From the NCBI GenBank assembly GCA_016190485.1, contig JACPQN010000126.1:1-35338 (forward strand): a stretch of DNA of 35,338 nucleotides, given 5' to 3'. The notes beneath the pieces are model-generated. The model saw only the letters and a list, made by a program, of their open reading frames with translations. It was not told the origin of the DNA and ran no database searches. The position numbers were made by a program, and so were the translations under genes. This stretch comes from Chloroflexota bacterium (lineage in GTDB: Bacteria > Chloroflexota > Dehalococcoidia > SHYD01). This document shows, piece by piece, positions 10,579-18,792 of the stretch (the first letter of the stretch is position 1; each line of letters opens with the position of its first letter).

Positions 10579-11718
10579 GTGCAGTTCACTCAGCTTACAT
10601 TGGAGAACTGGCGAAACTTCGGCCGCGCAGAGGTGGAACTCCCACGTCGCGTCTTTCTAGTTGGTCCTAATGCTTCAGGCAAGTCGAACTTTTTAGACGT
10701 TTTTCGTTTCCTCCACGACATCGCTTCAGTAGGTGGTGGCTTTCAGGCAGCTGTAAATACAAAGCGCGGCGGCGTCTCAGGGCTTCGCTCACTCGCCGCT
10801 CGACGTTATTCAGACATCCTAGTGCGAGTATTCGTCGGAGACGAAGGGAATCCCAAGCTCTGGGAATACATGCTTCAGTTTAACCAGGATAATCGCCAAC
10901 GGCCTACTATTCGCAAAGAACGAGTGGCTCACAAGGGCGAGACCCTCGTAGAGAGGCCTGACGAGGACGACAAAACAGATCCCGAGCTCACTACACAGAC
11001 CCATTTAGAGCAGGTGAACGTCAACCGACTTTACCGAGACCTCGCGCAGTTTCTTGCTTCGGTGCGGTATCTTCATATAGTTCCGCAGCTTATTCGAGAG
11101 CCGGATCGCTCAGTGGGGCGTCAAAATGACCCCTATGGTGGTGATTTCCTCGAGCAAATGATGAGGACACCCGTCAACACAAGGGAGGCGAGGCTTCGAC
11201 GAATGCGCGATGCTGTGAGGATCGCTATTCCTCAACTCAGAGAATTGGACTTGTTTCGCGACGACCGAGGCATACCGCATCTGCGGGGCAAGTATGAGCA
11301 CTGGAGACCGCAGGGTGCGTGGCAGACTGAACACGAATTCTCGGACGGAACTCTGAGGTTGATCGGCCTACTCTGGGCAGTGCTAGATGGCACTGGACCA
11401 CTGCTGTTAGAAGAGCCAGAGCTTTCCTTGCATCCTGAAGTGGTCCGTTACATACCCCAGATGTTCGCTAGGATTCAACGTCGCTCTGGACGACAGATCC
11501 TGGTAAGCACGCACTCTGGGGACCTGCTGAGGGACGAGGGCATAGGGCTAGACGAAGTGCTTCTTCTCAGCCCCGAAGCCGAAGGCGCATCCGTAAGATC
11601 AGCTGACGCATTCAAAGAGATTAAGGCCTTGCTGGACGGTGGTGTGAGCCTGGCCGAGGCAGTGCTTCCAAAGACTCGTCCTCCTCACGCCTCACAGCTG
11701 TCGCTATTCGGCGAATAA
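10579..11718 (+). CDS. AAA family ATPase (AAA_15/AAA_21, OLD/RecF-like), probable defence protein
   Basis: GTG start; Walker A GPNASGKSN, signature FSDGTLRLIGLLWA, Walker B GPLLLEEPELSLHPE, H-loop STHSGDLL. Confidence 0.88.
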   Translation: MQFTQLTLENWRNFGRAEVELPRRVFLVGPNASGKSNFLDVFRFLHDIASVGGGFQAAVNTKRGGVSGLRSLAARRYSDILVRVFVGDEGNPKLWEYMLQFNQDNRQRPTIRKERVAHKGETLVERPDEDDKTDPELTTQTHLEQVNVNRLYRDLAQFLASVRYLHIVPQLIREPDRSVGRQNDPYGGDFLEQMMRTPVNTREARLRRMRDAVRIAIPQLRELDLFRDDRGIPHLRGKYEHWRPQGAWQTEHEFSDGTLRLIGLLWAVLDGTGPLLLEEPELSLHPEVVRYIPQMFARIQRRSGRQILVSTHSGDLLRDEGIGLDEVLLLSPEAEGASVRSADAFKEIKALLDGGVSLAEAVLPKTRPPHASQLSLFGE

Positions 11719-12329
11719 TGGCGAGTGCCAGTTCCTTGGTTGTCACGGGAGCCGTAGAGGGTCCGGTAGATGAAGCTGTCCTGGGTAGCGTACTGCAATA
11801 CGTCGGCCTGAATCTTGGCACCGTCTACGGGAAGAACGGCAAGGTCGCCCTCCTTCAAGCCCTGAATGGCTACAACAGAGCCGCCACGTTTAACCCTTGG
11901 TGCGTCCTCGTGGACATGGATCGAGATCAAAGGTGTTTTCGAGACATACTTCAAGACTGGTTGCCTGATCCATCTCCACTAATGCGACTGAGAATAGTTG
12001 TCCGAGAGGCTGAGGCGTGGCTATTTGGCGACTCAGAGCGGTTGTCGGACTTTCTGGGTGTCGCTGCCAGACGCCTTCCTAGCAATCCCGAAGGAATCGC
12101 CCAGCCAAAGGAGGAAATGGTTGGTCTGGCCAGGCTCTCCCGCCGTCGTGATATCCGTGAGGATATGGTTCCACGACCGGGAAGCGGGCGCAATGTCGGG
12201 CCACTCTATTCTGCTCGGCTTATCCAGTTCGTCAGCGATCCCGGGACGGGATGGCGCCCAGACGTTGCCGCAACCAATGTCAACAGCTTGCATCGCTGCA
12301 TTACTCGCTTGAGAGAGTTCCTGAGCTAG
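11718..12329 (+). CDS. DUF4276-like partner protein of the AAA ATPase
   Basis: TAATG stop/start overlap with the ATPase gene; VVTGAVEGPVDEAVL, VLVDMDRDQR, REAEAWLFGDSERLSDFL resemble DUF4276/TOPRIM-like partners. Confidence 0.6.
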   Translation: MASASSLVVTGAVEGPVDEAVLGSVLQYVGLNLGTVYGKNGKVALLQALNGYNRAATFNPWCVLVDMDRDQRCFRDILQDWLPDPSPLMRLRIVVREAEAWLFGDSERLSDFLGVAARRLPSNPEGIAQPKEEMVGLARLSRRRDIREDMVPRPGSGRNVGPLYSARLIQFVSDPGTGWRPDVAATNVNSLHRCITRLREFLS

Positions 12330-12516: not shown

Positions 12517-12780
12517 ATGAAGGAATACCTGTCCACGGTCACCGTGAAGGGCCAGGTGACTATCCCCATCGCCGTGCGGCGACTCCTGGGCATCGACCCT
12601 CACGCCAAGGTTGCCTTTGTTGTGGAAGACGGGACCGTGCGATTGACCTGCGCTGGAAGTGTGGTGCAGCGGACGGCGGGCGCTCTCAAGGGAGGGAAAC
12701 TGGCCCTCAGCGCCGAGGACCTTCGAGCAGAAGCGGAACGGGCGATTGCAGAAGAGGCTGAGGACCGGTCGGGAAGGTAG
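12517..12780 (+). CDS. AbrB/MazE-type (SpoVT fold) antitoxin
   Basis: MKEYLSTVTVKGQVTIPIAVRRLLGIDPHAKVAFVVEDGTVRL, canonical swapped-hairpin AbrB N-terminus. Confidence 0.88.
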   Translation: MKEYLSTVTVKGQVTIPIAVRRLLGIDPHAKVAFVVEDGTVRLTCAGSVVQRTAGALKGGKLALSAEDLRAEAERAIAEEAEDRSGR

Positions 12781-13188
12781 ATGCCCGTTCCCTTCCTGGA
12801 CACCAACCTCTTCTTGAGACACCTGCTCGCCGATGACCCAGAGCAATCGCCACGTGCTACTGCCTACTTCGCCAAGATCGAGCAGGGGTTGATTCAGGTT
12901 TGCACCTCGGAGCTTGTCATCTTCGACACGGTCTTCACGTTGCAGCGGCGCTCTGGCCGGCCCAAATCCGTGATTAGAGATTCCCTGCTGCCTTTGATCG
13001 AGCTTCCCGGCATCCGGCTACCAGGAAAACGGCGCCTTCGCCGCGTGTTTGAGCTCTACGTTGACCAGAACCTCCCCTTCGCAGATGCCTACCACGTGGC
13101 GTTGATGGAGCGCCTGGGCCTCACGGCGATTGCCACCTTCGACCGAGAGTTCGACCGGGTGCCGGGGATAAAACGGGTGGAGCTTTAG
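12781..13188 (+). CDS. PIN-domain toxin (VapC-like)
   Basis: FLDTNLFLRHLL..., FADAYHVALMERLG, ATFDREFDRVPG acidic motifs; ATG immediately follows the antitoxin stop. Confidence 0.9.
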   Translation: MPVPFLDTNLFLRHLLADDPEQSPRATAYFAKIEQGLIQVCTSELVIFDTVFTLQRRSGRPKSVIRDSLLPLIELPGIRLPGKRRLRRVFELYVDQNLPFADAYHVALMERLGLTAIATFDREFDRVPGIKRVEL

Positions 13189-13205: not shown

Positions 13206-13299
13206 CTCTCCCGAGACCATGGCGGTGCTGGGGCGAACCCGCTGCCTGGCGCGGGTACGGCAGGCGGCGGATGTGGCGCTTTCAGCCAAGCAGGTCTAG
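13206..13299 (+). pseudogene. Remnant of a gltX 3' end (second allele)
   Basis: 13212-13257 matches 10374-10419 at 45/46 bp (the one difference is synonymous GCA/GCG); frame continues ETMAVLGRTRCLARVRQAADVALSAKQV* with its own tail and stop. Confidence 0.88.
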
Positions 13300-14111
13300 C
13301 TGCACTGAATGATCTTCCACTCGCTTGGAAAATCAGATCCTTGAGCCACTCCAAAGTAGATTTGGGGCGGCACCGCCCCAGAAAACGCTACGTACGCGCT
13401 AATACTAGGGGAAAGCCTGTCTCCAGCGCCAAACCACTTAATTGAACCACCGTTTATTGCACCTTCCCCATCAATGCTCATAGTCTTCGTCCGCGAGATT
13501 GCGCCACCTCCCGAGGGGCCATGTCCCCATTGTTGCACGACGTAGCCTTTAGGAACTGCGAAGCGCCAGTACATCACTTCACGGAAACGAGGACGTACTT
13601 CAACGGCGCTGGCTGAACTAATGCCTCCATAGTTAGTATGAAGGCTTACTTCAAATTCATCTTGTCGTTCGACTGGAACATTGGGCTGGCGACCCTCAAG
13701 ACCAGCCTTTACTAGCTCCGGCCAATTGGCATCGGCCAGGTTAACGCATAGCCGTATCCGCAGGGACGGAGGCACGTCCCCTATCCTTACTCCGTGCAAT
13801 AGTCCAATTAGAGGGAATTGCTCGCCTTTCGCGTCCAAAGCACGTAGCAACGCGAACCCTAGCTCCTCCTTGCATGCCTCACTAGACAAACTGTTTGCAG
13901 TGAGCAGATAGCCCCACCCGTCTATCTTGCCGCTAAGAATATGCTCAGCTATTTGCTGCCACAGCCGTCGTCCTGGAATGAGTGCTCGTCTATCGTAGGT
14001 AGCTTCAACTTCAACCGTTGCAAGCCTCTGCACGAGGTACGAGAAGTCTCCGACATCATCGTCTACCCATGCATAGGTTATCCATATTCTGGGACTATTC
14101 ATCGGCTCCAC
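13296..14111 (-). CDS. TIR-domain protein with an uncharacterised C-terminal domain
   Basis: N-terminus IWITYAWVDDDVGDFSYLVQRLATVEVEATYDRRALIPGRRLWQQIAEHI...SSEACKEELGFAL fits TIR_2-type domains; C-terminal ~110 aa predicted beta-rich. Confidence 0.75.
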   Translation of the reverse strand: MEPMNSPRIWITYAWVDDDVGDFSYLVQRLATVEVEATYDRRALIPGRRLWQQIAEHILSGKIDGWGYLLTANSLSSEACKEELGFALLRALDAKGEQFPLIGLLHGVRIGDVPPSLRIRLCVNLADANWPELVKAGLEGRQPNVPVERQDEFEVSLHTNYGGISSASAVEVRPRFREVMYWRFAVPKGYVVQQWGHGPSGGGAISRTKTMSIDGEGAINGGSIKWFGAGDRLSPSISAYVAFSGAVPPQIYFGVAQGSDFPSEWKIIQCS

Positions 14112-14867: not shown

Positions 14868-15200
14868 CTATTCCTCGGTCTTCGTGGCCTGACCCGTGGG
14901 GCACAGGGCCAGGAGCGGGCAGCCGCGGCAGCGGGGCGTCACCCGGCAATGGTCCTTGCCGAGCTGCACCAGCTGGGCGTGGTGCTCGTTGTAGAGAGCC
15001 GGGTCTTCCGGTAAATGCTCCATGAACAGACGGCGGTAGCCCTCGTAGCTCCGCTCCTCCGGATGCAGCTCCAACCGCTGGAGGACCCGGCGGGTGTAGG
15101 CGTCCACCACGAAGGTGGGGCGGCCTGCAGCGTAGAGGAGGATCGCGTCCGCCGTCTCTTCCCCAATCCCCTCCACATGAAGCAGCCCTTGCCGTGTCAT
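14868..15200 (-). pseudogene. N-terminally truncated endonuclease III homologue (C-terminal HhH/FeS part only)
   Basis: MTRQGLLHVEGIGEETADAILLYAAGRPTFVVDAYTRRVLQRLELHPEERSYEGYRRLFMEHLPEDPALYNEHHAQLVQLGKDHCRVTPRCRGCPLLALC duplicates the C-terminal part of 16387-17172. Confidence 0.9.
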
Positions 15201-16386: not shown

Positions 16387-17172
16387 CTAGGTTGACCTGC
16401 CCCGGCCTATTGCGCACACCTCGCGCAAGGGACACCCCTGGCATTTCGGCGTCGCCCGGCAATGGTCCTTGCCGAGCTGCACCAGCTGGGCGTGGTACTC
16501 GTTGTAGAGGGCCGGGTCTTCCGGCAAATGCTCCATGAACAGACGGCGGTAGCCCTCGTAGCTCCGCTCCTCCGGATGCAGCTCCAACCGCTGGAGGACC
16601 CGGCGGGTGTAGGCGTCCACCACGAAGGTGGGGCGACCCGCAGCGTAGAGGAGGATCGCGTCCGCCGTCTCGGGGCCGATGCCGGGCACCCGGAGCAGTT
16701 CCCGGCGCGTCATTTCCAGGTCACCCGCCAGCCGGGCCTGGGGGTCCTCGCCCAGCCAGGCCAGCAGCGCCCGCAACCGCCGCGCCTTCACCCGGTACGT
16801 CCCCGAGGGGCGGATCTGCTCCACCAGCTCATCGACAGACAGCTTTCGGAGAGGCGCCGGCTCCAGCAGGCCCGCCGCCTTCAGGTTGGCGATCGCTTTC
16901 TCCACGTTGCCCCAACTGGTGTTCTGGGTGAGCACCGCCCCCACGATGACCTCGAAGGGGGTTTCTGCGGGCCACCAGCGCAGCGGGCCGTAATATCGGT
17001 GGAGCCGGTGGAAGACCGCCAGAAGGTGGTCCCTCAGACTGCCGGCAGGCCCGCCTGCCGGACGGGCAGGCCCGCTCCCCCTCGCTCCCAGGGCTGAGCG
17101 CGCGTCCAACACCGCGGCGGCCCGGCTATCTCCAGACCCAGGCGGGCATCCGGACGCCGGGCGGCGCGTCAT
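16387..17172 (-). CDS. Endonuclease III / HhH-GPD family base-excision glycosylase
   Basis: EVIVGAVLTQNTSWGNVEKAI, LRVPGIGPETADAILLYA, VVDAYTRRVLQRL, FeS CxxxxxxCxxCxxxxxC (CRATPKCQGCPLREVC). Confidence 0.92.
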   Translation of the reverse strand: MTRRPASGCPPGSGDSRAAAVLDARSALGARGSGPARPAGGPAGSLRDHLLAVFHRLHRYYGPLRWWPAETPFEVIVGAVLTQNTSWGNVEKAIANLKAAGLLEPAPLRKLSVDELVEQIRPSGTYRVKARRLRALLAWLGEDPQARLAGDLEMTRRELLRVPGIGPETADAILLYAAGRPTFVVDAYTRRVLQRLELHPEERSYEGYRRLFMEHLPEDPALYNEYHAQLVQLGKDHCRATPKCQGCPLREVCAIGRGRST

Positions 17173-17602
17173 AGGGCGGCAGGTATGGTTTTATGTCGAG
17201 CACCGGCGTGCCGTCCGTGGCGTCCAGCCCCCGCACTCGCAGCACCGGGCCGTCCACTCCCAGCAGCGACACAACCGCCAGGCCCAGGGGGTTGGGGCGA
17301 AGCTGGGTGCGGGTGGCGAAGACGCCGACCAGCGGGAGATCGGTCCGCCCACCCGGGTGGTATTGACCACCCTTTCGCAGCTCCTGGGGCACACGGTGCA
17401 TCCAGAAGAGCACGATGACGTGGGAGAAGCCCGCAAGTCCCTCCAGCGCCGGCGCCAGAGCAGGGTCGAGGCGCAGCTCCGACTCCACCGCTTCCCAGCC
17501 ATGAGGCTGGGGGTCCGGCACCCCGTTCCGCACCAGCCCGATGGGCCGCAGGCAGTAGGTGTCGCCTTCGCCCTGGCCTGGCTGGGGGTGAGCGCTGCTC
17601 AT
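17126..17602 (-). CDS. trmO: TrmO/TsaA (UPF0066) family tRNA methyltransferase
   Basis: LRPIGLVRNGV, GFSHVIVLFWMH, VGVFATRTQLRPNPLGLAVVSLL, LDIKPYLPPYDA. Confidence 0.93.
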   Translation of the reverse strand: MSSAHPQPGQGEGDTYCLRPIGLVRNGVPDPQPHGWEAVESELRLDPALAPALEGLAGFSHVIVLFWMHRVPQELRKGGQYHPGGRTDLPLVGVFATRTQLRPNPLGLAVVSLLGVDGPVLRVRGLDATDGTPVLDIKPYLPPYDAPPGVRMPAWVWR

Positions 17603-17611
17603 GGCCCGGGG

Positions 17612-17887
17612 CTACCTGGGCCCGGGGGACAGGATGTCCGTGGGGCCACTGGCCTCCTGCTGGGCGGAACGGACCATCTCCTGGTTGGCCCGCCCGATGG
17701 CCTGCCGGATAGCGTCCTCGCTCACGGCGTGGGGGTCGTAGGTCACCGTGACCGTCCGGGCGCGCTCCACGATCTTGAGGTCCCTGATACCGGGAAGCTG
17801 GTTTACCTCACGGGTAACGTACTCGAATCAGCCCTTTCAGAAGGCTGCCGGCACCACCTCGGTGAGGGTCTGGTCGTCGGCGGGCAT
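17612..17887 (-). CDS. Candidate selenoprotein: HMA-like domain with U-x-x-U in place of C-x-x-C (two in-frame UGA)
   Basis: ATG at 17887 with AAGGAG RBS 7 nt upstream; MPADDQTLTEVVPAAF-[UGA]-KG-[UGA]-FEYVTREVNQLPGIRDLKIVERARTVTVTYDPHAVSEDAIRQAIGRANQEM... ending TAG at 17612. UGAs at 17837-17839 and 17828-17830. Downstream hairpin TTACC-CGTGA-GGTAA. Confidence 0.82.
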
Positions 17888-18054
17888 GCACACGCTCCTT
17901 GGGTCGGGATTATCGGGTTACAGAGGCATTGTACGCCTGCGTCGCGCGCCGTGAAAAGCGGCACCCACGGGGCCACGCACCGGCTTGCATCGGGAGCGGC
18001 AGCCAGGCTACCATGCTGTGCAGGGTCTGCCATCACTGTCGCCGAGGAGCGTCC

Positions 18055-18792
18055 ATGGGCCACGCCGAGTTGACCGAGCTGTTCTTGGAAAAGCTGCAAC
18101 TGGAGCTGCCACCGGTGGCGCTGACCTTTGTAGAGCAGCCGCCTCCTGATGTGCTGGTGATGGGTAAAGAGGCCCCCTCCTTCTGCACTCTGTGGCGCTG
18201 GGGCGAAAACGCCACCTTCTTCGCTTCGGCGGAGCAGCACCTGGGCTGCCTTGTGGGCGGGATGGTCTCCGGTTACGCCCTGAAGGGCGAGCAGTTGGAG
18301 GAGGTGACGCTGCTCCTGGACGAGCTCTGCCCCGCCGACGACCTGCCGCCGGACAAGATCGAAGAGGTGCCCAAGGTGGAAAAACGCCACGCGGGCGCCG
18401 TGTACGGCCCCCTCTGGAGCTGCGCCCTTGAGCCGGACCTGGTGCTGGTGTGGGCCAACATCGTGCAGGTGGCGGTGCTCCAGGAGGTCAGCAGCCCGGT
18501 GATGTGGCGGGGCAACCCCCAGGGCGGTGTCTTCCCCCGGCCCGCTTGTAGCGTCCTGGCCACCGCCCTCTCCTTCCAGAAGCCGGCCTACTCCCTCGGC
18601 TGCGTCGGCATGCGGGCCTACACCCAGGTGCCGCCGGAACTGAGCCTGCTGGCCATTCCCGGTAGTGCGCTGGGGCAGCTTGAACAGGGGCTGCGCTCTA
18701 TCGAGGACCCCCAGGCCCGGATGCAGGTCTACTACGACCGCATCCACGCCGCCCAGCAGGCCCAGCAAGGGCAGGGGGCGCACCACGGGTGA
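18055..18792 (+). CDS. DUF169 family protein
   Basis: MGHAELTELFLEKLQLELPPVALTFVEQPP...CTLWRWGENATFFASAEQHLGCLVGGMVSGY...PACSVLATAL...SLGCVGMR; GAGGAG upstream of ATG. Confidence 0.78.
   Translation: MGHAELTELFLEKLQLELPPVALTFVEQPPPDVLVMGKEAPSFCTLWRWGENATFFASAEQHLGCLVGGMVSGYALKGEQLEEVTLLLDELCPADDLPPDKIEEVPKVEKRHAGAVYGPLWSCALEPDLVLVWANIVQVAVLQEVSSPVMWRGNPQGGVFPRPACSVLATALSFQKPAYSLGCVGMRAYTQVPPELSLLAIPGSALGQLEQGLRSIEDPQARMQVYYDRIHAAQQAQQGQGAHHG

Follow-up and report, generated by a model that had tools for sequence, protein, structure and literature searches.

A lineage-restricted HMA-type gene of Chloroflexota with in-frame UGA codons at both positions of its predicted metal site

Gene, domain and predicted fold

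The window analysed here, a stretch of 35,338 nt from a groundwater-type Chloroflexota MAG (2.89 Mb, 84% complete), carries a short minus-strand gene with two in-frame UGA codons, termed UxxU-HMA in the following (Table 1). Translated from the ATG at 17887, it reads MPADDQTLTEVVPAAF-U-K-G-U-FEYVTREVNQLPGIRDLKIVERARTVTVTYDPHAVSEDAIRQAIGRANQEMVRSAQQEASGPTDILSPGPR-TAG, with the terminator at 17614-17612 and the two UGAs as the only internal stops of the frame. The initial annotation had described this frame, its AAGGAG element and the UGAs as its sole interruptions, and all of them were recovered when the sequence was re-read. It had also pointed out that standard ORF calling overlooks the gene; this is indeed the case, because the UGAs close its frame.

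Table 1. Features of the UxxU-HMA locus (positions refer to the window)
Feature	Position	Strand	Remarks
Predicted UxxU-HMA selenoprotein gene	17612..17887	-	91 codons from ATG to TAG, of which codons 17 and 20 are UGA; counterparts on L010 and L013
AAGGAG ribosome-binding site	17895..17900	-	7 nt 5' of the ATG; assigned by sequence
UGA codon 17	17837..17839	-	First predicted Sec position, corresponding to the first Cys of C-x-x-C
UGA codon 20	17828..17830	-	Second predicted Sec position, corresponding to the second Cys of C-x-x-C
Candidate bSECIS UUACC-[CGUGA]-GGUAA	17803..17817	-	Based on codon conservation and loop type; structure alone not significant
DUF169 gene	18055..18792	+	Divergent neighbour, upstream of the UxxU-HMA gene
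TrmO (tRNA methyltransferase O) gene	17126..17602	-	Follows after 9 nt on the same strand; co-transcription possible

With cysteine written in place of U, the protein matched the Pfam HMA profile PF00403 with 33.8 bits (gathering score 24.8, E 4.4e-8), and about 1e-5 such matches would be expected by chance over the six frames of the 35-kb window. C17 and C20 align to the two C-x-x-C columns of the profile, as had been claimed for the UGA codons at the outset. The predicted fold is beta-alpha-beta-beta-alpha with a long C-terminal helix (pLDDT 76, from a shallow alignment of two sequences), and the U-x-x-U motif is placed at the start of helix 1. The last strand of the complete HMA fold (beta-alpha-beta-beta-alpha-beta) is absent from this model; since the model was built on two sequences, we regard the loss of the strand as tentative. 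Its top matches among solved structures were the CopZ-type metallochaperone 2qif, HAH1/MNK1, MerP 1osd and CopP 1yg0 (TM to target 0.74-0.81). Inspection of the protein by eye gave no indication of a signal peptide.

Several other window genes were noted in passing. The minus-strand intervals 14868-15200 and 16387-17172 hold a 110-aa frame and the HhH-GPD (endonuclease III-like) gene to whose C-terminal half it is almost identical, and the frame is a local partial duplication. By eye, an AbrB-like frame followed by a PIN-like one (12517-13188, plus strand) has the appearance of a toxin-antitoxin pair. Also judged by eye, an AAA/OLD-like ATPase gene with a second gene (10579-12329, plus strand) and a gene for a protein with a TIR-like beginning (13296-14111, minus strand) are possible defence genes.

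Relatives, known families and genomic neighbourhood

The host genome encodes a paralog (L010 1498-1752), and an ortholog is present in a second genome of the same order, G004 (L013 minus 1767-1501; JACQUQ010000128.1, Chloroflexi bacterium isolate NC_groundwater_1441). In both, the UGAs occupy the same pair of columns as in the window gene, and none of the three genes has any other in-frame stop. The paralog is 45% and the ortholog 53% identical to the window protein, the three being mutually about 45-54% identical, and they score 42.5 and 46 bits, respectively, with the Pfam HMA profile. All three keep the motif AF/AY-U-x-x-U-x-x-x-VTREV-x-x-LPGI, in which the canonical metal loop GMxCxxC has given way to an (A/N)A(F/Y)UxxU-like context, and the residues flanking both UGAs are conserved in each of them. 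Cysteine homologues align at codons 17 and 20 and U-x-x-U homologues occur in the host and in G004, so that the search suggested in the initial annotation returned both kinds of relative. The in-frame UGAs thus align with the cysteines of homologues between conserved flanks, as is expected of a bacterial selenoprotein.

A tree of 31 HMA domains unites all three UxxU-HMA proteins in one clade (support 100/99), with the window protein and the G004 protein as the closest pair (98/84). A profile made from the three sequences gave 154, 157 and 136 bits with its members, the best other match being 46 bits in 394 genomes of the class and 58 bits in a sample of 399 genomes of the phylum. The family was found in 2/394 class genomes; three other genomes of the order, all incomplete, contain neither a UxxU-HMA gene nor DUF169. 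When a collection of genome contigs was searched, the single protein found nothing and the alignment found the G004 ortholog only, and a search of viral contigs for relatives was likewise negative. The dN/dS values of the genes lie between 0.3 and 0.9, moderately below 1. No convincing operator shared by the three genes was seen in their upstream regions.

Whether the family had already been described was a question raised by the initial annotation, and the answer is divided. Metal-binding selenoproteins with a U-x-x-U motif as such are catalogued: a 2026 review lists NF041115 as UxxU with 2 Sec and as a 'putative mercuric reductase' (PMC13188914), and NF045683 (MerT_CopZ_Se) is a further entry of this kind. 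The subfamily studied here falls far below the cut-offs of both. NF041115 (UxxU_metal_bind) likewise comprises small HMA-like proteins with Sec at both C-x-x-C positions. However, the window protein, its paralog and the ortholog reach only 22.3, 33.7 and 37.2 bits against a curated cut-off of 95, and even the ordinary Cys-containing CopZ of the host, with 45.2 bits, scores above the 22.3 bits of the window protein. The latter also differs in its motif context, in lacking a predicted last beta strand and in having a DUF169 neighbour. With 22 bits against 95, we therefore file it outside that equivalog. NF045683 shares the HMA domain in a selenoprotein of heavy-metal transport resembling a MerT/CopZ fusion, whereas the window protein consists of 91 aa, is HMA only without the MerT membrane part, and scores 13.5 against 375 bits. 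From CopZ and MerP (PF00403), which it resembles in fold, length and the place of the two-residue metal motif, it is set apart by predicted Sec-x-x-Sec for Cys-x-x-Cys, by A(F/Y)U in place of the GMxC loop, and by a predicted fold without the final strand but with a long C-terminal helix; its scores with CopZ_Bs (29.1 vs 91 bits) and MerP (26.8 vs 92.55 bits) stay below the curated cut-offs. The Prx-like UxxU and FmdB-like UxxU proteins (PMC13188914) also carry two Sec in a U-x-x-U arrangement, but their folds, thioredoxin-like and FmdB-type, respectively, are unrelated. Judged by sequence, the UxxU-HMA family is a new, lineage-restricted clade of predicted selenoproteins whose kind is already catalogued. 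We know of no double-Sec U-x-x-U metal-binding protein that has been characterised.

A second U-x-x-U type is present in the host. The gene at 4524-5258 of L142 (contig C126) would encode 244 residues with a MerT-like membrane part and a C-terminal HMA domain reading MT-U-A-G-U. This MerT-HMA protein resembles MerTP fusions and MerT_CopZ_Se but remains below their cut-offs, and its position in the HMA tree is uncertain because of its long branch.

Of the genes around the UxxU-HMA locus, DUF169 recurs. In G004 the ortholog is closely followed, on its own strand, by a DUF169 gene (L139 7094-7828); DUF169 hence adjoins the UxxU-HMA gene in both genomes that bear one, although the orientations differ. 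The DUF169 proteins have four cysteines in common, in the contexts SFC/SAC, GC/HC, PAC/PGC and LGC/FGC (alignment of five rows, with L149 disregarded because of its wrong frame). A link between DUF169 and selenium in the literature consists of one entry for one species in a co-occurrence table (PMC5322559), to which we gave no weight. The DUF169 protein is possibly a working partner of the UxxU-HMA protein, and its adjacency is taken here as a lead, also for the uncharacterised DUF169 family itself. TrmO is absent next to the G004 ortholog, and since this neighbourhood is not kept, we treated it as incidental. The window gene is not flanked by a mer or cop operon, which makes any metal specificity a guess.

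UGA decoding in the host and a candidate SECIS hairpin

The host genome contains a full-length tRNA-Sec (72.4 bits, anticodon UCA) together with SelB (364.9 bits), SelA (559.5 bits) and SelD (389.5 bits), all three far above the curated cut-offs. The complete set of sel genes which the initial annotation had proposed to look for is therefore present. The host gene for SelD, too, is interrupted by a UGA in frame, at CAG-U. Among the host tRNAs found with RF00005, gathered as individual loci from the 84%-complete genome, the UCA anticodon belongs to tRNA-Sec only; tRNA-Cys has GCA and tRNA-Trp CCA. As a terminator, TGA is used by 6/16 clear window genes, and these genes have no internal UGA. In G004, the formate dehydrogenase gene has a UGA at SCNRT-U-HAPS, the known Sec site of this enzyme.

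Two further observations concern UGA and tRNA genes in general. The SelD genes of 5/5 genomes of the order (L045-L049) have the in-frame UGA at CAG-U, and a strong hairpin with a GGUGC or CGUGC loop follows 31-33 nt downstream of each. A 'tRNA-Pyl (cta)' reported by ARAGORN in the host genome (L106 1500-1574) was rejected as a mis-call, as its loop CTTCTAA fits tRNA-Arg(UCU).

Downstream of the UGAs in the window gene, a short stem-loop can be drawn whose CGUGA loop starts 15 nt past UGA20, at a distance of 24 nt from UGA17. The smaller of these distances is close to the lower limit of those published for bSECIS elements. The hairpin spans the VTREV codons, and these (GTT-ACC-CGT-GAG-GTA) are identical in the window gene and the host paralog even though three of them are rare in the host (GTT 4%, CGT 8%, GTA 5%). 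By codon usage, the joint chance of five-codon identity is 9e-5. Elsewhere, the two genes agree in 15/29 codons, about what codon usage alone would give (13.8 expected). The G004 ortholog has GTG for GTT and GTC for GTA; both changes are synonymous, one U-A pair becomes G-C, and the loop is unchanged. The loops of UGA-associated hairpins in the order are GGUCU in formate dehydrogenase, GGUGC or CGUGC in SelD, CGUGUC in MerT-HMA and CGUGA throughout the UxxU-HMA family. The window hairpin is no stronger than those of synonymous resamples (P 0.36), nor is it always the MFE fold or a unique one. As the resampling was not significant, we base the SECIS assignment on the conserved codons and the type of loop, from which UUACC-CGUGA-GGUAA is a probable bSECIS hairpin. 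A bSECIS is expected to carry G/GU in its apical loop. The initial annotation had suggested a bSECIS prediction; a bSECIS-like hairpin with conserved codons and a loop like those of other selenoprotein genes lies 3' of the UGAs, but it is not unusually strong.

Proposed function and alternative readings

Taken together, the Sec machinery of the host, the Cys homologues and the recurrence of the same UGAs in three genes support the original proposal that both cysteines are replaced by Sec, and it is very probable that the window gene encodes an HMA protein with Sec at both metal-site positions (U17-K-G-U20). Insertion of Sec at codons 17 and 20 is what we infer from the sequence. The product would be a small cytoplasmic protein with a CopZ/MerP-like HMA fold, carrying selenocysteine in place of both cysteines of the metal site. 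SelB would deliver the Sec-tRNA(UCA) and both UGAs would be read, with the one CGUGA-loop hairpin aiding the reading of each.

Decay of an ordinary CopZ-like gene by two nonsense mutations would also leave a frame that is broken to ordinary ORF callers, and the dN/dS values are not very low. However, the same two UGAs stand at both Cys columns in three diverged genes from two genomes without any other stop, the probability that UGA would hit and stay at exactly both Cys codons by chance is negligible, and Sec machinery and hairpin are in place. A pseudogene, which had been thought unlikely before, is effectively refuted by the paralog and the G004 ortholog, and we leave it scarcely any weight. 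Only slightly more can be granted to the reading of UGA as Cys or Trp, be it through recoding of the genome or through a variant tRNA. Variants of tRNA-Cys that read UGA are known from bacteria, but UGA ends genes in this window without occurring inside them, and the Cys and Trp anticodons found in the host are GCA and CCA, with UCA left to tRNA-Sec. It is also improbable that one UGA is decoded efficiently while the other mostly terminates, such that mainly a peptide of 16 or 19 residues arises and Sec insertion is regulatory. A single hairpin would be expected to support double insertion only inefficiently, and the unequal loop distances would fit this; yet the conserved flanks of both UGAs argue that the full-length protein is selected.

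With Sec accepted at both positions, the role of the protein is less firmly assigned. We slightly favour binding of a soft metal in the cytoplasm by the two selenolates: the diselenolate pair may bind Hg(II), Cu(I) or similar, and the protein may act as a metallochaperone or sequestrant. That the protein is instead a diselenide redox protein, an oxidoreductase or a peroxide or metalloid reductase, appears less probable but deserves consideration. Most characterised selenoproteins are redox enzymes (PMC9312934), and the altered metal loop as well as the unpredicted last HMA strand would agree with such a function. On the other hand, the HMA fold is kept, with CopZ, MerP and CopP as the best structural matches, and other U-x-x-U HMA proteins, including the MerT fusion of the host, are tied to metal transport. 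For the soft-metal binder, cooperation with the neighbouring four-cysteine DUF169 protein is possible. In a more speculative and rather doubtful form of this idea, the UxxU-HMA protein would be a chaperone from which the DUF169 protein receives either the soft metal or a species bound to selenium, the two proteins constituting a lineage-specific pair for metal or metalloid handling. If true, this would be the first functional lead for DUF169.

The UxxU-HMA gene is of a kind that standard annotation drops. Its predicted product is small, soluble and stand-alone, it has an ortholog, a paralog and Cys homologues, and one compact hairpin would serve two UGAs that are nine bases apart. These properties make it a practical test object. 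The questions that could be addressed with it are how one bacterial SECIS serves two close UGAs and why two selenolates are placed in a metal-binding loop.

Further UGA-containing frames of mer type were noticed in G010, a genome of the same class. On L020, the gene at 1261-1716 encodes a MerP-like protein that has UGA in place of the first motif Cys (U-P-S-C), and it is followed at about 1795-2115 by a small frame that resembles MerT and reads C-U. This looks like a selenium-using mer-type locus.
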